Source: Orientallactaga sibirica (lineage: Eukaryota > Chordata > Mammalia > Rodentia > Dipodidae). Taken from it: 64,000 nt of DNA. The notes beneath the pieces are model-generated. The model saw only the letters and a program-made list of their open reading frames with translations. It had not been told where the DNA came from and made no database searches. Positions 4,429-34,307 of the stretch are shown here, piece after piece; position 1 is the stretch's first letter, and each line of letters begins with the position of its first letter. The stretch is taken from assembly GCA_036365145.1 (NCBI GenBank), contig JAEOAD010000982.1:4986001-5050000 (forward strand). Direction: 5' to 3'. The translations under genes were made by a program, and so were the position numbers.

Positions 4429-4798
4429 TGTAGCAGAGAGCTTCAGGTTCTCTGAGATGAACTTCCAGACCAGGCACAGTTATGGAGGAAGGGATTTATT
4501 GAAGCTTATAGATCCTGGTGAAGTTCTATAATGGCAGAAGAAACTAGCGTGCTTTCACAGGTCCAAGCAGTGAAAGAGAAGCCACAAGCCAAAAGCCACA
4601 CAGCACACTTCAGGAACTCCAGGAGGAACTAAGCATTCTACATGTCTTTAGATTGGAATTGTAAACACACTACCACACCTTAGGGCTGGATCCTAAGATC
4701 CACCCAGTGACACTTCCTCCATCCAGGTGGCTGCAGATGCAAACTACAAACTAATAAAATATTGAATATATTGGGGGTCATCTATTCAAACTACCATA
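4429..4798 (-). mobile_element. MaLR-type LTR (3' LTR, antisense)
   Basis: It is clearly related to the LTRs of the 11.9-16.0 kb composite. Shared segments include AGATGAACTTCCAGACCAGG, the reversed AATAAA region near GGGATTTATTGAAGC, and a terminus ending CTACCATA. It is more diverged than the composite's LTRs, so older or a different subfamily. Confidence 0.8.
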
Positions 4799-5370
4799 TT
4801 CTGCCCCTAGCCCCCAATAGATTTAAAACCATCATACATTGTAAATTGTATTCAGCCCAATTTCAAAGATCCCCACAATCTTGACCAACTTAATATTGTT
4901 CCAAAGTCCCAAGTCTTCTCTAAGATTTAAGATTTTCTCTTAACTGTGAGTCCTTTAAAATTTAACAAGTTAAATACTTTCATCATATAAAGGTACAGAG
5001 TAAGTAAACATTTTCAACAGGTATAAGGCAAGGAGAGACTAGAACAATGCAAACGCAACAACCATCAAATTTCTGCAGTTCATGCCCAATATAACCAGAG
5101 ACTGACAGTCTCTAGATTTTCCAATTCCACCCCTCCAGCTGGGCAGAGTAGCTAGGGAAAACTTCCATCCCAGGCCAACAGTGCGCTCCATGGTAGTCCT
5201 TGCATAGACCTGGTATATCCAAAACGTCTTCAGGTTTCCATGCAAACCATAGTCCATCTTCCAAAGGCTCTTCAGCCTATCAGGGCATCACGCCCTGACT
5301 CATGCCACATCTCAGTAGTGGGTTCTGGAACCGTGTGCATTTTATGACCACTCCACACATTCTTCCTCAA
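4799..5370 (-). mobile_element. MaLR-type internal region, antisense, truncated
   Basis: Continues from the LTR with a reversed polypurine tract (TTCTGCCCCTAGCCCCCAAT). It is colinear with the internal region of the composite at 14.3-14.9 kb up to about 5,370, where similarity stops. The 5' half and the second LTR are absent. The polypurine tract is present once here but duplicated in the composite. Confidence 0.75.
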
Positions 5371-11789: not shown

Positions 11790-11945
11790 GTACCAACACC
11801 TCAGAGCATACCTTTATCAAAGACAGAGCCATTACAGATGTGATTAAGGTTTAATGAAATCGTTAGGTTGGCCTTTATCCAGCAGGACTCAGGTCCTTAG
11901 AAGAAGGGGAGATGAGGATGCAGACATACCTAGTGGATGACCCTG
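11790..11945 (+). mobile_element. old MLT1-like LTR, left part
   Basis: CAACACCTCAGAGCATACCT, CAGATGTGATTAAGGTTTAA and GTTAGGTTGGCCTTTATCCA match the general plan of an ancient mammalian MaLR (MLT1-like) LTR. It stops at 11,945 where the younger composite begins and resumes at 15,952, so it is the insertion target. Confidence 0.6.
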
Positions 11946-12330
11946 TGTACAGAGCAGACAGCTTCAGGTTCGCTGAGATGAACTTCCAGACCAGGCACAG
12001 TTATGGAGGAAGGGATATTATTTATTGAAGCTTACAGATCCAGGGGAAGTTCCATAAAGGCAGGAGAAGCAGCTTGCTTTCACAGGGCCAAGCAGAGAGA
12101 GAGAGAAACCAACCAGGCACACAGCACACTGAGCAAAACTATAGCCAAAAGCCCAGCACACTTCAGGAACTCCTGCTAGGCACACTTTGCATATCTTTAC
12201 AATGGAATCTCAAATCCACCACCACACCTTAATGCCCACTGACATTGCCTCTAGCAAGGTGGCTGAGGATGCAAACTATAAACTAATAAAACACTGAATA
12301 TATTGGGGGCCATATATTCAAACTACCGCA
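11946..12330 (-). mobile_element. outer LTR 1 (antisense)
   Basis: Reversed LTR from TGTACAGAGCAGACAGC to CTACCGCA. It shares diagnostic segments with the LTR at 15,574-15,951 (GGGCCAAGCAGAGAGAG, CCACTGACATTGCCTCTAGC) and differs from the inner pair there. The terminal C is mutated (GCA instead of ACA). Confidence 0.85.
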
Positions 12331-12532
12331 TTCTGCCCCTGGCCCCCAATAGATTTAGTTCCTGGCCCCCAATAGATTTATAACTATCACACATTGTAAA
12401 TTGTACTCAGTCCAATTTCAAAGGTTCTCACAGTCTTGACCAACTTAAGATAGTGAGTCCTGTAAAATCAAACAAGGTAAATACTTTCAACATGTAAAGG
12501 CACAGAGTAAACATTTTTAACTGGTATAAGGC
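12331..12532 (-). mobile_element. 3' internal segment (antisense) ending AAGGC
   Basis: Reversed polypurine tract next to the LTR, present twice as a 23-bp tandem (12,338 and 12,361). It then runs to CTGGTATAAGGC, where the sense LTR begins abruptly. The end carries the inner element's variant (TATAAGGC), whereas the outer element has TAAAAAGCAAAG at 14,538-14,549. Confidence 0.8.
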
Positions 12533-12923
12533 TGTGGTAGTTTGAATATATGTCCCCCAATATATTCAGTGTTTTATTGTTTTATAGTTTGCATCTGTAA
12601 TCACCTTGCTAGAGGCAAGGTCACTGGGGGCTGGTCTTAAGGTGTGGTGATGGTTTGAGAGTCCATTGTAAAGATATGCAAATGTGTCTAGCAGGAGTTC
12701 CTGAAGTCTGCTGTGTGACCTTTGGCTGTAGTTAGTTTTGCCCTGTGTGCTGTGGTGGCTGGTTGGCTTTGCTCTCTCTGCCTGGCCTTGTGAGAGCAGG
12801 CCGCTTCTTCTGCCATTATGGAACTTCCCCTGGATCTGTAAGCTTCAATAAATAATATCCCTTCCTCCATAACTGTGCCTGGTCTGGAAGTTCATCTCAG
12901 CGAACCTGAAGCTGTCTGCAACA
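12533..12923 (+). mobile_element. inner LTR 1 (sense)
   Basis: Complete 391-bp LTR from TGTGGTAGTTTG to CTGTCTGCAACA, with AATAAA at about 12,847. It is almost identical, reversed, to the LTR at 13,950-14,343, with only a handful of single-base differences. The two therefore look like the paired LTRs of one DNA copy. Confidence 0.88.
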
Positions 12924-13949
12924 GTAAAGTGGTACCGAGGAGTGTGGGGTGAGATGAACCTGACCGTGTGGATATTCGTCTTTTGGAACCTTTGTTTTGG
13001 AGGAATGGGCATGGACTTGGTGCTTGCAACTGAAGATGCCTTCTGGAGTGGTAAGCCAAGTTTTATGGACTATTCTTATGAGAGTTTGAGAATGCTAAGT
13101 GCAGACAGTATTGAACTTCGAGGCTTGGCTTATGAGCTTTCTAAGGGGAAGGAAAGACTGCAGAGGACTTTGTTGGAACTGGGCTACTGGCATAAAGGAT
13201 GGCTACGTTCCGCTATCCAGGCCCAGAAAGTTTGATCAAGGTTAAATTTGTAATGGACTGATGTGCTTGGCTAAAGATATCGGACTGAAATTTTAAGATT
13301 TTTGAGTTGGAAAACCTGAAGCAAGCTAAAAGTAGAGGCACTGAGACTGGTTAAGCTGCTATTGTCTACACATTAGCAATCTTAAGGAAGGTGGAAGGAA
13401 GGTGGCCTGACTTGATTTACATTAAAACAATGGAGAGGATGCCTGAGGAAAGACTGTTAGAAATGCAAACTTTTGGAAAGAGTGTTTACTGGAGAAGGAA
13501 CCTGCTTTTCAAGGCTCTGATTTATTTTGTCCCTGGATTAAGAATATGGCTGTGTCCTGCACACCTGGTATTAGTTTTGGAAATATGAAAAATGCATAGA
13601 ATGGTCATGAGTTGCACACGGTTCCAGGAGCCGCTGCTGAGATGCGGCATGAAGCAGGGCATGAAGACCCTCAGGAATAGGCTGGAAAAGCCTTTGGAAG
13701 ATGGACTGTGGGTTGCATGGAGACCTGAAGATGTTTTGGATATACCAGGACTGTGCAAAAGGGCTACCATGGAGTGCAGTGTTGGCATGGGATGAAAGTT
13801 TTCCCTGGCGACTCTGCCCAGCTGGAGGGGCGGAATTGGAAAACTGGAGACTGTCAGTCTCTGGTTATATTGAACTTGAACTGCAGAAGTTTGATGACTG
13901 TTGATGGTGGTTGAGTTTGCATTATTCTAGTCTCTCCTTGCTATGCCTT
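12924..13949 (+). mobile_element. inner element 5' internal region (sense)
   Basis: Begins GTAAAG then TGGTACCGAGGAGTG, a primer-binding-site-like match to the 3' end of tRNA-Leu, as expected for ERVL/MaLR. It has a 93-codon ATG frame (12,954-13,235) also open in the outer copy. The region ends at CTATGCCTT, the reverse of the AAGGC bordering the left junction. No known protein domain. Confidence 0.8.
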
Positions 13950-14343
13950 TGTAGCAGACAGCTTCAGGTTCGCTGAGATGAACTTCCAGACCAGGCACAG
14001 TTATGGAGGAAGGGATATTATTTATTGAAGCTTACAGATCCAGGGGAAGTTCCATAATGGCAGAAGTAGCGGCCTGCTCTCACAAGGCCAGGCAGAGAGA
14101 GCAAAAGCCAACCAGCCACCACAGCACACAGGGCAAAAACTAACTACAGCCAAAAGGTCACACAGCAGACTTCAGGAACTCCTGCTAGACACATTTGCAT
14201 ATCTTTACAATGGACTCTCAAACCATCACCACACCTTAAGACCAGCCCCCAGTGACCTTGCCTCTAGCAAGGTGATTACAGATGCAAACTATAAAACAAT
14301 AAAACACTGAATATATTGGGGGACATATATTCAAACTACCACA
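13950..14343 (-). mobile_element. inner LTR 2 (antisense)
   Basis: Starts TGTAGCAGACAGC and ends CTACCACA. Partner of the sense LTR at 12,533. Both have the CTCACAAGGCCAGGCAGAG and AGACCAGCCCCCAGTGACC variants that the outer LTRs lack. Confidence 0.88.
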
Positions 14344-15573
14344 TTCCGCCCCTGGCCCCCAATATATTTAGCTCCTGGCCCCCAATAGATTTATAACTAT
14401 CACACATTGTAAATTGTACTCAGTCCAATTTCAAAGGTTCTCACAGTCTTGACCAACTTAAGATAGTGAGTCCTGTAAAATCAAACAAGTTAAATACTTT
14501 CAACATGTAAAGGCACAGAGTAAACATTTTTAACTGGTAAAAAGCAAAGAGAGACTAGAATAATGCAAATTCAACTATCATCAGCCGTCATCAAACTTCT
14601 GCAGTTCAAGTTCAATATAACCAGAGACTGACAATCTCCAGGTTTTCCAATTCTGCCCCTCCAGGTGGGCAGAGTAGCCAGGGAAAACTTCCATCCCAGG
14701 CCAACACTGCACACTACATGGGAGCCCTTGCATAGTCCTGGTATATCCAAAACATCTTCAGGTCTCCATGCAAACCACAGTCCATCTTCCAGAGGCTCTT
14801 CCAGCCTATTTCTGAGGGTTTTTCTGCCCTGCCTCATGCCGCATCTCAGCAGCGGCTCCTGGAACCATGTGCAATTCATGACCACTCCATGCATTTTTCA
14901 TGCTTCCAAAACTAATGCCAGGTGTGCAAGACACAGACATATTCTTAATCCAGGGACGAAATTAATCATAGCCTTGAAAAGCAGGTTCCTTCTCCAGTCA
15001 ACTCTTTACAAGAGTTTGCATTTCTAATAAGTCTTTCCTCAGGCATCCTCTCCATTGTTTTAATGTAAAGCAGTCAGGCCACCTTCCTTCCACCTTCCTT
15101 AAGATTGCTAATGTGTTTGACAATAGCAGCTCCAGTAACCTAAAACCAGTCTCAGTGCCTCTATAATTTTAACTTGCTTGAGGTTTTCCAACTTAAAATC
15201 TTAAAATCTCAGTCCATTATCTTTAGCCAAGCACATCAGTCCATTACAAATTTAACTGTGATCAAACTTTCTGGGCCTGGATAGTGGAACATAGCCATCC
15301 CTTATGCCAGTAGCCCAGTTCCAACAAAGTCCTCTGCAGTCTTTCCTTCCCCTTAGAAAGCTCATAAGCCAAGCCTCCAAGATCAATACTGTCTGCACTT
15401 AGCATTCTCAAACTCTCATCAGAATAGTCCATAAAACTTGGCTTACCACTCCAGAAGGCACCTTCAGTTGCAAGCACCAAGTCCATGCCCATTCCTCCAA
15501 AACAAAGGTTCCAAAAGACAAATATCCACACGATCTGGTTCATCTCGCCCCACACTCCTAGGTACCACTTTAC
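14344..15573 (-). mobile_element. complete internal region (antisense)
   Basis: 1,230 bp from the reversed polypurine tract to the reversed primer-binding site (CTAGGTACCACTTTAC). The inner copy's two separated pieces sum to 1,228 bp, so they are the same region split. The 93-codon frame (15,262-15,543, minus) is about 96% identical to the sense copy, and most differences change the amino acid, so no selection for coding is apparent. Confidence 0.85.
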
Positions 15574-15951
15574 TGTAGCAGACAGCTTCAGGTTTGCTGA
15601 GATGAACTTCCAGACCAGGCACAGTTATGGAGGAAGGGATATTATTTATTGAAGCTTACAGATCCAGGGGAAGTTCCATAATGGCAGGAGAAGCAGCCTG
15701 CTTTCACAGGGCCAAGCAGAGAGAGAGAAACCAACCAGGCACACAGCACACTGAGCAAAACTACAGCCAAAAGCCTAGCACACTTCAGAAACTCCAGCTA
15801 GGCACACTTTGCATATCTTTACAATGGAATCTCAAACCATCACCACACCTTAATGCCCACTGACATTGCCTCTAGCAAGGTGGCTGAGGATGCAAACTAT
15901 AAACTAATAAAACACTGAATATATTGGGGACCATATATTCAAACTACCACA
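15574..15951 (-). mobile_element. outer LTR 2 (antisense)
   Basis: Reversed LTR from TGTAGCAGACAGC to CTACCACA, of the same variant group as the LTR at 11,946. Followed directly by the CCCTG target duplication. Confidence 0.88.
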
Positions 15952-16132
15952 CCCTGTGAGGACACTTGGAGGAGATAGGACCAGCAAGTCAAGGAAAAGC
16001 CTTGGGAGAATCCAGCCATTCCCACACCTTGAACTCAGACCGCCGTCTCCGGGAATGGAGAATGGGAATGGGAGAGAATATCTGCTATTTAAGCAACACA
16101 GTCTGTGGAACTTAGTTGTGGCAGGCCTGCAT
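15952..16132 (+). mobile_element. old MLT1-like LTR, right part
   Basis: Continues the LTR interrupted at 11,945. It carries GCTATTTAAGCAACACAGTC and TGTGGAACTTAGTTGTGGCA, the usual 3' part of such LTRs. Confidence 0.6.
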
Positions 16133-27631: not shown

Positions 27632-27797
27632 TTTTTAATTATTTTATTTTATCGTTTTTTTCAGGTAGGGTCTCACTCTAGCTCAGGCTGATCTGGAATT
27701 CACTATGTAGTCTCAGAGTGGCCTCGAACTCATGGTGATCCTCCTACCTCTGCCTTCCGAGTGCTGGGATTAAAGGCGTGCGCCACCACCCTGGCTA
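27632..27797 (-). mobile_element. B1 copy A (left boundary of duplication)
   Basis: Antisense B1 with a T-rich start and end CCACCACCCTGGCT. Flanked by matching 17-bp target repeats (27,615-27,631 and 27,798-27,814, ATATnnGATATTTTTAT). Diagnostic bases: CTGATCTGG, ACTATGTAGTCTCAGAG, GGTGATCC, GCGTGCGCC. Confidence 0.92.
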
Positions 27798-28361
27798 ATA
27801 TTGGATATTTTTATAGTGACAGAAAGTTGACTAATATTCATGAATTGTTCTTGTTTTAATTTGGTGCTTTGAAATAAAATAAAATTAGATGGTTGAGGAA
27901 TTTCTTGTACTACCTTCTGAATATTTGCCTTGATTTATCAACTTATGTATTTATATTTACAGTTTTGCTATTTCAAGGCCCAACATTGTCCCAGGGCATA
28001 ATTTGAAAGTAAGGAAATGAAGATTAAAGTGGAAGAAACTTTAAAAATGTATGTCTGTGGGGCTGGGAATATATCATAGTAGTTGAGTTTTTTCTTTTTT
28101 TACTGTTTTAGACCAAATACATTTTGATTCATAACAACCTCATAGCACTTTGCCAAAAATAATTTACTGATATTTATGGATTAGAAAATGATAGACATAG
28201 AAAAGTTGTAACAAAATAATGCAACAGAAGAAAATATAAAAGATGAATGGGCGACTGAAATAAAGGTCCTATCCCTAGGTCAACAGGCATTTCTAGGGTT
28301 AAGTTTTTGCCTAGCATACAGAAGGGGGTGGACACATTACCCAGTAGTAAATAAAATGAAA

Positions 28362-28648
28362 TGAAAAAAAAAAGAAAGAAAAAGAATATAAAAAAGGGGA
28401 AAGGAGGTATGAAGGAGAAGGGAAAGAAGGTAAAAGGGAAAGTAAACAGGAAAGGGGAAAAGAACAGAAGAGGGAAAGGGAAAGGAAAGGAAAGAAGAAA
28501 GGGAAAGGAAAAGAAGAGGAGGGGAGAGAAAAGGAAAGTAAGGAAAAGGGAGAGGGAAGAAAGGGAAGGAAAGGGAAGGGAAGGGAAGGAAAGATTAGGG
28601 AAGGGAAGATTAGGGAAGGAAAAGAAAAGGTCAGGGAAGGAAAAGGCA
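28362..28648. repeat. polypurine tract, copy 1
   Basis: About 287 bases with only about a dozen pyrimidines on the plus strand, built from GGGAA/GGAAA pentamers with two GATTAGGG interruptions. The long Lys/Glu/Arg frame on plus and Phe/Ser/Pro frames on minus come from this composition and are not genes. Confidence 0.9.
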
Positions 28649-29296
28649 TTACTTTGGGAGTTTTGTCTTCTGATTTCAGATTCCAACAACTGTGTGCCTT
28701 CTCAGAGTTCTCAACAAGATACAGTTGACTGGTTAATTAGAAGGAATTTCAGAATCTGAACATATTTACTCCCATTCCAAAAGGGTTACATGCTGAGTGC
28801 CAAAAGCAATTATATTTTCTGACAATTTGGACAAAATCTTGACACATGGAATTTTTCGAGATTTAAATCAAAGTGGTGAGTTTCAGAAACTTAAAAGTGA
28901 TGAATTTTTAGAGACATCAAAGTGAGTTCAAATTAAAATTCTATGGAGTAAGGATCATGCATGTGATGAGTTCATCAAACTATAGCCTAAATTATATATG
29001 AACACATAAACAAGGGCATGTAAAACTGAGACTTAGGAAGAAGGAGAGTGTGGGGTGTCAGTTGCCTGGGTGTGGCATGTAACTATAATTCTCTCTGCAA
29101 GACATTAGTTTGGGAGGACATGAAATGCCTTTGGAATTACAATGACCTTAAGAAAAGGAAAATTCGTTAAACAAATTCTAAGGAGGAAGGCAGAATGAGA
29201 TTAGGGCATTGCAGAGTCTAAAACATATTTGTAATTTTCTCCAAAGGCAGGCAGGCAGGCAGAGAATGTGGGGTTCACTTAAAGAAGATTGAAAAT

Positions 29297-29304
29297 TTCT
29301 TTGT

Positions 29305-29341
<37 letters not shown>

Positions 29342-29900
29342 GTTCACATGTGTGCATGGGTATGTGGAGGTGCATGTGGAGGACAGAGGAAAACCTTGGG
29401 TATCATTCCTCAGGTATGCTCTTCCCTTAATTTTTGCATGTGTTTACGTGTGTGTGTGGTGTCATGTATTTCTTTCCTTGAGACATGGTCTCTTGCTCAA
29501 CCTGGAGCTGAGTCTGTCAGGGAGCCCCAACCATTCTCTGGTCTCCACGTCCCATGACACAAGTGGGCATATCTAGTGTTTTACTGGGGTATTAGGAGTT
29601 ACCCTTCATGGTCTCTGGACTCAGATACCTTCGTGCTTAAGCTACAAGTGCTATTAATTAACCTCTGGTTCATCTCCCCAGAGCACTGTCCGCTTTTAAA
29701 AGACAAGTTCTCTGACTTATGTGGAAGGTGCCATGTGGACTGGACTGGTGGGCCAGCAAGCCTTGAGGAACTGCCTGCCAGATCTGGGATTACAAGCATG
29801 CAGCACCATGCCTGGCTTTGTAATGCAGATTCTAGGGATCTAACTCAGGTCCTCATACATGCACAGCAAGCACTTTAATGACTAAAACATCTCACCAGAC
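29297..29900 (-). mobile_element. long tRNA-headed SINE(s), antisense, copy 1
   Basis: (GT)n tail, CTTGAGACATGGTCTCTTGC, GGGATTACAAGCATGCAGCA, GATCTAACTCAGGTCCTCAT and CATCTCACCAG head. At about 600 bp it is too long for one element and probably two nested or adjacent copies. Confidence 0.65.
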
Positions 29901-30028
29901 GAAGGCTGTGTTACTGCAGGATGAGTTCAAAACCACTACATGATTAGGACCATGAAAAGGGATATTTCCAGAATTTTGCACCTTTGATGCACACAGAGTA
30001 TTGGTGCTGTATCCAATAAGAAGTGGGC

Positions 30029-30210
30029 TGGAGAGATGGCTTAGCGGTTAAGGTGCTGGCCTGCAAAGCCTAAGGACCTAAGTTTGATTTCTCAGTATCC
30101 ACATAAGCCAGATGCACAACTTGGTGTATGTGTCTGGAGTTCATTTGCAGTGGATGGAGGCCCTAGCTCACCCATTCTCTCTCTCTCTATCTCTCTCTGT
30201 TTCTCTCCCA

Positions 30211-30261
<51 letters not shown>

Positions 30262-30268
30262 AAAATGT
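30029..30268 (+). mobile_element. Dip-like SINE, copy 1
   Basis: GGGCTGGAGAGATGGCTTAG head, CTGCAAAGCCTAAGGACC, CT block, and a long AAAT-repeat tail (about 30,211-30,262). Confidence 0.88.
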
Positions 30269-30900
30269 AAACAAATAAGAAGCAGTAGTTGTCCTAGCTT
30301 GCATGGCCACCATTAAAGTAGACTTGTGAGGCCCCATGGGGTTTCTTTTATTTGCATCTTTTAATATTGACCTGTGGCTTCTGAACTGATCATAACTAAA
30401 TTTAAAGGTTGTACTTAAAGTCCTCTTTGGGAATCAAGCCTTAGGGTTAGATGCTAATCAGACTTGACTTTACACCATGAAGAGACAGTCACCCTAGACA
30501 AACAAACTAAGTTCTATCCTATGATGTTTCATAGCCTAGAGTCATTATTTCACCTCCCCCCTTGGAGAATCTGGCATTTTCCCCTCAACATTATATCTTT
30601 GAGATTCATATTATCACTTTTCACCATTGTCGATGTTCATTGTTGCCAATATTTTAATAGGCACCATCTTATGCCATATATAATTTACCTATTTTCCTTT
30701 GAAGTAATACTTCCATTTTGATTAAACTTCTGCCATATTCCTAGGAGAAATGAGTGTAAATGAACAAAAAAGTCTTATGCAAAAATGTTAATGTCATTAT
30801 TAGTCACATATATACATATTCATGCATATAGATGTGTACATATAGATGATAAAGTAAATATAAGAACTCATAAAGGCAAGAAAAAATAGAAAACATTCTT

Positions 30901-31052
30901 TTTTTTTTTTTTTTTTTGAGGTAGGGTCTCACTCTAGCTCAGGCTGACCTGGAATTCACTGTGTAATCTCAGAGTGGCCTCGAACTCATGGTGATCCTCC
31001 TACCTCTGCCTTCCAGTGCTGGGATTAAAGGCGTGCGCCACCACCCTGGCTA
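30901..31052 (-). mobile_element. hybrid B1 at the duplication junction
   Basis: Left flank TAGAAAACATTCTT (30,887-30,900) belongs to B1 copy B; right flank ATATTGGATATTTTTAT (31,053-31,069) belongs to copy A. Bases at 30,948, 30,961 and 30,966 match copy B. Bases at 30,973, 30,992, 31,012 and 31,036 match copy A. The switch lies in 30,967-30,972. This copy has no matched target repeats of its own. Confidence 0.93.
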
Positions 31053-31612
31053 ATATTGGATATTTTTATAGTGACAGAAAGTTGACTAATATTCATGAAT
31101 TGTTCTTGTTTTAATTTGGTGCTTTGAAATAAAATAAAATTAGATGGTTGAGAATTTCTTGTACTACCTTCTGAATATTTGCCTTGATTTATCAACTTAT
31201 GTATTTATATTTACAGTTTTGCTATTTCAAGGCCCAACATTGTCCCAGGGCATAATTTGAAAGTAAGGAAATGAAGATTAAAGTGGAAGAAACTTTAAAA
31301 ATGTATGTCTGTGGGGCTGGGAATATATCATAGTAGTTGAGTTTTTTCTTTTTACTGTTTTAGACCAAATACATTTTGATTCATAACAACCTCATAGCAC
31401 TTTGCCAAAAATAATTTACTGATATTTATGGATTAGAAAATGATAGACATATAAAAGTTGTAACAAAATAATGCAACAGAAGAAAATATAAAAGATGAAT
31501 GGGCGACTGAAATAAAGGTCCTATCCCTAGGTCAACAGGCATTTCTAGGGTTAAGTTTTTGCCTAGCATACAGAAGGGGTGGACACATTACCCAGTAGTA
31601 AATAAAATGAAA

Positions 31613-31888
31613 TGAAAAAAAAAGAAAGAAAAAGAATATAAAAAAGGGGAAAGGAGGTATGAAGGAGAAGGGAAAGAAGGTAAAAGGGAAAGTAAACAGG
31701 AAAGGGGAAAAGAACAGAAGAGGGAAAGGGAAAGGAAAGGAAAGAAGAAAGGGAAAGGAAAAGAAGAGGAGGGGAGAGAAAAGGAAAGTAAGGAAAAGGG
31801 AGAGGGAAGAAAGGGAAGGAAAGGGAAGGGAAGGGAAGGAAAGATTAGGGAAGGGAAGATTAGGGAAGGAAAAGAAAAGGTCAGGGAA
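31613..31888. repeat. polypurine tract, copy 2
   Basis: Same purine run as at 28,362-28,648, with the A-run at its start one base shorter. Confidence 0.9.
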
Positions 31889-32550
31889 GGAAAAGGCATT
31901 ACTTTGGGAGTTTTGTCTTCTGATTTCAGATTCCAACAACTGTGTGCCTTCTCAGAGTTCTCAACAAGATACAGTTGACTGGTTAATTAGAAGGAATTTC
32001 AGAATCTGAACATATTTACTCCCATTCCAAAAGGGTTACATGCTGAGTGCCAAAAGCAATTATATTTTCTGACAATTTGGACAAAATCTTGACACATGGA
32101 ATTTTTCGAGATTTAAATCAAAGTGGTGAGTTTCAGAAACTTAAAAGTGATGAATTTTTAGAGACATCAAAGTGAGTTCAAATTAAAATTCTATGGAGTA
32201 AGGATCATGCATGTGATGAGTTCATCAAACTATAGCCTAAATTATATATGAACACATAAACAAGGGCATGTAAAACTGAGACTTAGGAAGAAGGAGAGTG
32301 TGGGGTGTCAGTTGCCTGGGTGTGGCATGTAACTATAATTCTCTCTGCAAGACATTAGTTTGGGAGGACATGAAATGCCTTTGGAATTACAATGACCTTA
32401 AGAAAAGGAAAATTCGTTAAACAAATTCTAAGGAGGAAGGCAGAATGAGATTAGGGCATTGCAGAGTCTAAAACATATTTGTAATTTTCTCCAAAGGCAG
32501 GCAGGCAGGCAGAGAATGTGGGGTTCACTTAAAGAAGATTGAAAATTTCT

Positions 32551-32554
32551 TTGT

Positions 32555-32591
<37 letters not shown>

Positions 32592-33155
32592 GTTCACATG
32601 TGTGCATGGGTATGTGGAGGTGCATGTGGAGGACAGAGGAAAACCTTGGGTATCATTCCTCAGGTATGCTCTTCCCCCTTAATTTTTGCATGTGTTTACG
32701 TGTGTGTGTGGTGTCATGTATTTCTTTCCTTGAGACATGGTCTCTTGCTCAACCTGGAGCTGAGTCTGTCAGGGAGCCCCAACCATTCTCTGGTCTCCAC
32801 GTCCCATGACACAAGTGGGCATATCTAGTGTTTTACTGGGGTATTAGGAGTTACCCTTCATGGTCTCTGGACTCAGATACCTTCGTGCTTAAGCTACAAG
32901 TGCTATTAATTAACCTCTGGTTCATCTCCCCAGAGCACTGTCCGCTTTTTAAAAGACAAGTTCTCTGACTTATGTGGAAGGTGCCATGTGGACTGGACTG
33001 GTGGGCCAGCAAGCCTTGAGGAACTGCCTGCCAGATCTGGGATTACAAGCATGCAGCACCATGCCTGGCTTTGTAATGCAGATTCTAGGGATCTAACTCA
33101 GGTCCTCATACATGCACAGCAAGCACTTTAATGACTAAAACATCTCACCAGACGA
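32551..33155 (-). mobile_element. long tRNA-headed SINE(s), antisense, copy 2
   Basis: Duplicate of 29,297-29,900. It differs by a CC gain near 32,675 and one extra T near 32,950. Confidence 0.65.
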
Positions 33156-33283
33156 AGGCTGTGTTACTGCAGGATGAGTTCAAAACCACTACATGATTAG
33201 GACCATGAAAAGGGATATTTCCAGAATTTTGCACCTTTGATGCACACAGAGTATTGGTGCTGTATCCAATAAGAAGTGGGCTG

Positions 33284-33465
33284 GAGAGATGGCTTAGCGG
33301 TTAAGGTGCTGGCCTGCAAAGCCTAAGGACCTAAGTTTGATTTCTCAGTATCCACATAAGCCAGATGCACAACTTGGTGTATGTGTCTGGAGTTCATTTG
33401 CAGTGGATGGAGGCCCTAGCTCACCCATTCTCTCTCTCTCTATCTCTCTCTCTGTTTCTCTCCCA

Positions 33466-33516
<51 letters not shown>

Positions 33517-33521
33517 AAAAT
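33284..33521 (+). mobile_element. Dip-like SINE, copy 2
   Basis: Duplicate of 30,029-30,268. One extra CT unit, and the AAAT tail length may also differ. Confidence 0.88.
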
Positions 33522-34156
33522 GTAAACAAATAAGAAGCAGTAGTTGTCCTAGCTTGCATGGCCACCATTAAAGTAGACTTGTGAGGCCCCATGGGGTTTC
33601 TTTTATTTGCATCTTTTAATATTGACCTGTGGCTTCTGAACTGATCATAACTAAATTTAAAGGTTGTACTTAAAGTCCTCTTTGGGAATCAAGCCTTAGG
33701 GTTAGATGCTAATCAGACTTGACTTTACACCATGAAGAGACAGTCACCCTAGACAAACAAACTAAGTTCTATCCTATGATGTTTCATAGCCTAGAGTCAT
33801 TATTTCACCTCCCCCCTTGGAGAATCTGGCATTTTCCCCTCAACATTATATCTTTGAGATTCATATTATCACTTTTCACCATTGTCGATGTTCATTGTTG
33901 CCAATATTTTAATAGGCACCATCTTATGCCATATATAATTTACCTATTTTCCTTTGAAGTAATACTTCCATTTTGATTAAACTTCTGCCATATTCCTAGG
34001 AGAAATGAGTGTAAATGAACAAAAAAGTCTTATGCAAAAATGTTAATGTCATTATTAGTCACATATATACATATTCATGCATATAGATGTGTACATATAG
34101 ATGATAAAGTAAATATAAGAACTCATAAAGGCAAGAAAAAAATAGAAAACATTCTT

Positions 34157-34307
34157 TTTTTTTTTTTTTTGAGGTAGGGTCTCACTCTAGCTCAGGCTGA
34201 CCTGGAATTCACTGTGTAATCTCAGGGTGGCCTCGAACTCATGGCGATCCTCCTACCTCTGCCTCCCAAGTGCTGGGATTAAAGGCGTGTGCCACCATGC
34301 CTGGCTT
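34157..34307 (-). mobile_element. B1 copy B (right boundary of duplication)
   Basis: Antisense B1 flanked by perfect 14-bp target repeats TAGAAAACATTCTT (34,143-34,156 and 34,308-34,321). Diagnostic bases: CTGACCTGG, ACTGTGTAATCTCAGGG, GGCGATCC, GCGTGTGCC. Confidence 0.93.

Follow-up and report, generated by a model that had tools for sequence, protein, structure and literature searches.

A composite of four long terminal repeats (LTRs), lying at positions 11,946-15,951 of the window (the whole 64,000-nucleotide stretch of Orientallactaga sibirica DNA analysed here), most likely records two events. A younger LTR retroelement probably inserted into an older relative of its own family, and recombination between inverted arms then probably flipped part of the nested pair. 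The preference for an inversion is mainly one of economy and does not derive from a decisive sequence test. A sequence-only reading had interpreted the same layout as the remains of an element that attacked its own interior and was captured, as a circle, by a resident element; the locus is probably not such a fossil of retroelement suicide.

The four LTRs belong to a single family and follow one another in the order A antisense, B sense, C antisense and D antisense, as found by direct reading, a repeat search and BLAST. The coordinates first proposed for the LTRs and internal pieces all hold when the sequence is read directly (Table 1), and a copy of CCCTG stands on either side of the whole composite.

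Table 1. Features of the composite, in window coordinates; older and younger refer to the relative ages suggested by LTR divergence.
Feature	Position	Strand	Remark
Outer target-site duplication CCCTG, left copy	11,941-11,945	.	read from sequence
LTR A, 3' LTR of older A/D element	11,946-12,330	-	96.6% to D
3' internal piece, 202 bp, running on from LTR A	12,331-12,532	-	AAGGC (12,528-12,532) at shared-site end
LTR B, 5' LTR of younger B/C element	12,533-12,923	+	98.7% to C
5' internal piece, 1,026 bp	12,924-13,949	+	GCCTT (13,945-13,949) at shared-site end
LTR C, 3' LTR of younger B/C element, inverted relative to B	13,950-14,343	-	98.7% to B
Full-length internal region, 1,230 bp	14,344-15,573	-	
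LTR D, 5' LTR of older A/D element	15,574-15,951	-	96.6% to A
Outer target-site duplication CCCTG, right copy	15,952-15,956	.	read from sequence
Left inverted arm, LTR B plus 5' internal sequence	12,533-13,942	+	inverted match to 14,543-15,951
Right inverted arm, 5' internal sequence plus LTR D	14,543-15,951	-	inverted match to left arm

The LTRs have TG...CA ends and are associated with 5-bp target duplications, as in MaLR-type non-autonomous LTR retrotransposons, and the family may be of this type, as named in the sequence-only reading. The internal region measures 1,230 bp; the longest of the eight listed open reading frames of at least 60 amino acids encodes 120 amino acids, on the strand opposite to that of the element. 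An older antisense relative of the same LTR family lies at 4,429-5,365; its LTR is 72-75% identical to A-D, its internal region is partial, and it served as the outgroup for the comparisons described below. Short-pattern scans for further family copies gave no matches in viral and prokaryotic contig collections, a result which, given the nature of those collections, says little.

The LTRs fall into two pairs. BLAST identities are 96.6% between A and D and 98.7% between B and C, with cross pairs at 86.8-87.5%. This bears out the original observation that the LTRs beginning at 12,533 and 13,950 are nearly identical and that the outer LTRs form another variant group. Over 390 aligned bp there are 2 substitutions between B and C, as against 10 over 375 bp between A and D; ungapped columns hold eight singleton substitutions in A, five in D and one each in B and C. 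Since substitutions are more numerous between A and D than between B and C, and A and D also carry more singletons, the outer pair is, judged from these counts, the older and B/C the younger. At the diagnostic sites which separate the pairs, A is of A/D type and C of B/C type throughout, whilst B stays C-like and D stays A-like.

The inner junctions meet at one place in the family's internal sequence. AAGGC directly precedes B and GCCTT directly precedes C, and the 202-bp and 1,026-bp pieces both end at this site. AAGGC stands on both outer sides of B and C, each read in its own sense, which is the pattern left by a single insertion that duplicates 5 bp. Either this 5-mer or its complement is present at 128 of the 127,992 strand-sites of the window, so that an in-register match would arise by chance about once in 1,000 cases. 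The inverted 5-bp duplication at a single internal site, as reported in the sequence-only reading, is real, both copies being read directly in the sequence. The accompanying claim that the split pieces add up to an intact internal region also stands, the total being 1,223 bp once one 5-bp copy is removed, against 1,230 bp in the intact region. The site itself varies between copies. GCCTTATACC stands here both in the older copy (4,429-5,365) and in the 202-bp piece, so that GCCTT is present at the corresponding place in one other family member; the full region has GCTTTTTACC. An excess of five bases (CTATG in the register first used; 13,940-13,949, just before GCCTT) is confined to the end of the 1,026-bp piece when this is compared with the older copy and the full region, which justifies the caution originally attached to these extra bases. 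The excess could serve as a marker that ties the target to one LTR type.

The arrangement can be accounted for by nesting and one inversion. In the proposed sequence of events, a young sense element (B/C) would have landed inside an older antisense member of its own family (A/D), giving the order A'-3'int'-AAGGC-[B-internal-C]-AAGGC-5'int'-D', in which a prime denotes antisense. Homologous recombination would then have joined B and the adjoining 5' internal sequence with D and its 5' internal sequence, the two forming inverted arms, and everything between the crossover points would have been flipped. The outer element's 5' internal piece would thereby come to lie in sense behind B, followed by GCCTT and by C in antisense; beyond C would come the inner element's internal region, in antisense, and then D. 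The duplication that had stood beyond C would end up reverse-complemented beside C'. At the diagnostic sites B has remained C-like and D A-like, which would confine the crossover to a stretch that starts in the final part of the LTR and runs to the end of the 5' internal piece (about 12,810 to 13,942); to this the LTR would contribute its last 114 bp and the internal region some 1,000 bp. The 1,026-bp piece is accordingly predicted to be a mosaic, derived from the inner element at its start and from the outer element near the shared site, and the 1,230-bp region would belong mostly to the younger element, with a stretch of the outer element beside D.

Symbolic enumeration showed that a sense element nested in an antisense one, followed by a single inversion between inverted arms, reproduces the observed block order exactly. 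For this nested pair the enumeration comprised six inversions and two deletions, duplications being left out, and the observed order resulted from two of the eight single exchanges, namely between LTRs B and D and between the two 5' internal sequences. By the block lengths used, these account for 1,416 bp of the 3,568 bp of exchangeable homology. Nesting in the same orientation gave the observed order in none of the eight deletions listed, duplications again being left out. Insertion of an element into a member of its own family is held to be frequent, and so is exchange between inverted repeats that lie close together. The sequence-only reading had argued that a simple nested insertion cannot give this layout; that argument concerns nesting alone, and nesting followed by inversion, which had not been considered, yields an identical order.

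The inverted arms align over 1,433 bp at 90.6% identity and lie 600 bp apart, and their longest exact runs are 92 bp from 12,810, 76 bp from 13,120 and 58 bp from 12,978. Inverted arms of this kind, 1.4 kb long and so similar, are able to mislead scaffolding, and a mis-oriented join between them, whether an assembly or a haplotype artefact, could make plain nesting look flipped. Such an artefact is nevertheless very improbable here, the arms differing by 95 mismatches and 39 gap positions and the window containing no N.

The layout also resembles known inversions caused by mobile elements. Inverted homologous copies (12,533-13,942 and 14,543-15,951) flank the inverted segment, as in transposon-mediated ectopic inversion, and the target-site duplication is reverse-complemented (AAGGC before B, GCCTT before C), as both an ectopic inversion and a self-integration circle predict. 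Target-site duplications that are reverse-complemented next to two chimeric copies of opposite orientation have been published as the mark of an inversion by ectopic recombination (PMC2775673; PMC12368964). The Galileo inversion 2z3 of Drosophila buzzatii (PMC2775673) shares with the present locus opposite homologous copies, an inverted segment between them and reverse-complemented target-site duplications. There, however, the copies occupy the two separate breakpoints of a chromosomal inversion, whereas here one copy would lie within the other, and the position of the crossover would set the length of the flipped segment at some 0.6 to 2.9 kb. Bacterial insertion sequences offer a similar case, in which recombination between the terminal inverted repeats turns the interior round (PMC3004938). 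There the elements are DNA transposons and both arms belong to a single element, in place of a pair of LTR retroelements.

A complex element might alternatively have been assembled by template switching during reverse transcription, between co-packaged RNAs, and have entered the chromosome in a single integration flanked by CCCTG. Three-LTR complex elements of the Triticeae, with flanking duplications, have been explained in this way (PMC1950507). The model set out there places LTRs interspersed between two internal regions in line, and an inverted block with a second, internal 5-bp duplication is foreign to it. Since inverted blocks with an internal 5-bp duplication are not among its products, we reject template switching as the main cause, and as an origin of this locus it is barely credible.

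The alternative put forward in the sequence-only reading deserves closer comparison. B/C cDNA would have attacked its own interior to form an inversion circle, which homologous recombination within the 3' internal segment would have captured into a resident A/D element. An inverted short duplication is expected at the junction of an autointegration inversion circle, and here LTRs B and C do both abut a single internal site by their outer ends, next to an inverted 5-bp duplication; an inversion of a nested pair predicts this equally. Retroviral autointegration is reported to yield nonproductive deletion or inversion circles (PMC2644782); the inversion circle resembles the present locus in having both LTR outer ends at one internal site, but it is extrachromosomal and nonproductive, and here capture into a resident element would be needed as well. 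Symbolic enumeration gave the observed block order by this route in two of six cases, with the crossover in the 3' internal segment or in LTRs A and C. These cases draw on 592 bp of the 2,788 bp of possible crossover homology, and the crossover must further fall within roughly 220 bp because A is wholly of A/D type and C wholly of B/C type at the diagnostic sites. A suicidal circle and its capture by homology in the germline are judged to be two rarer steps than nesting and inversion, the circle being a dead-end product. Since the circle leads to the same order, it is only the less economical of the two histories, and we consider it unlikely. The pairing of the LTRs, the shared site and the inverted 5-bp duplication on which it was founded all stand; the circle itself is not needed, as nesting plus inversion gives the same order and the same duplications. 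The outer CCCTG pair, which is intact, is compatible with either model.

The two histories differ in whose internal sequence was attacked, that of the older element (inversion) or the younger element's own (circle). Differences were polarised with the older copy at 4,429-5,365. At LTR sites splitting A/D from B/C, this copy matches A/D at 16, B/C at 8 and neither at 1, after removal of 18 gapped columns. For the 3' part of the 1,026-bp piece the matches are 17 to the piece, 12 to the full region and 1 to neither (16 gapped sites dropped), but seven of the 17 fall within a nine-base stretch (182-190) and probably reflect an indel offset. Repeating this comparison with four gap costs left the counts at 17 and 12 in three cases and changed them to 12 and 10 with the lowest cost. 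For the 202-bp piece the older copy matches the piece at two sites and the full region at three, two gapped sites being dropped. Judged from these counts, outgroup polarity appears to carry no real signal for either history.

Retention of CpG dinucleotides provided a second comparison. Of the CpG sites in the two long internal copies, eight survive in just one copy, six of them in the 1,026-bp piece and two in the full region, and three more survive in both; within the 202-bp segment the full region alone keeps one and the piece none. The larger number in the 1,026-bp piece, as though it were young throughout, would agree with the circle along the entire piece, and with the inversion only in the first part of it. 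Two of the six sites (positions 695 and 907 of the piece) sit where the inversion model would make the piece older. CpG retention thus seems to lean slightly to the circle, on too few sites. Along the internal halves, neither outgroup polarity, with a single older copy as outgroup, nor CpG displays a clear switch point.

The 202-bp pieces are closer to one another than the 1,026-bp pieces, with 5 substitutions in 199 bp (2.5%) against 72 in 1,013 bp (7.1%), and the two 3' internal segments share an identical run of 117 bp (12,360-12,476 and 14,373-14,489), a point in favour of the circle. Such closeness could reflect past recombination, as expected under the circle, or a stretch of sequence common to the two subfamilies. 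Apart from it and the slight CpG lean, no result favours the circle. A comparison of two close copies shows no type switch inside the 202-bp piece, although one may be present.

Because nesting and inversion mimic the circle block for block, two LTRs with an inverted duplication cannot by themselves be read as autointegration. Genome scans for autointegration fossils would need a separating test, namely which element owns the attacked internal sequence. Among the matches listed, considered by titles and the starts of abstracts, none described a chromosomal fossil of an autointegration circle or a nested-plus-inverted form in MaLR elements, which is not to claim that none exists. Were the circle nonetheless true, the locus would be direct evidence of suicidal retroelement circles re-entering the germline, with both integrase junctions preserved.

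Elsewhere in the window, 27,638-31,051 and 30,895-34,306 are direct tandem copies that repeat at an interval of about 3.25 kb. Their identity is 99.1% across an alignment of 3,422 bp, and they represent either a recent duplication or an assembly duplication.
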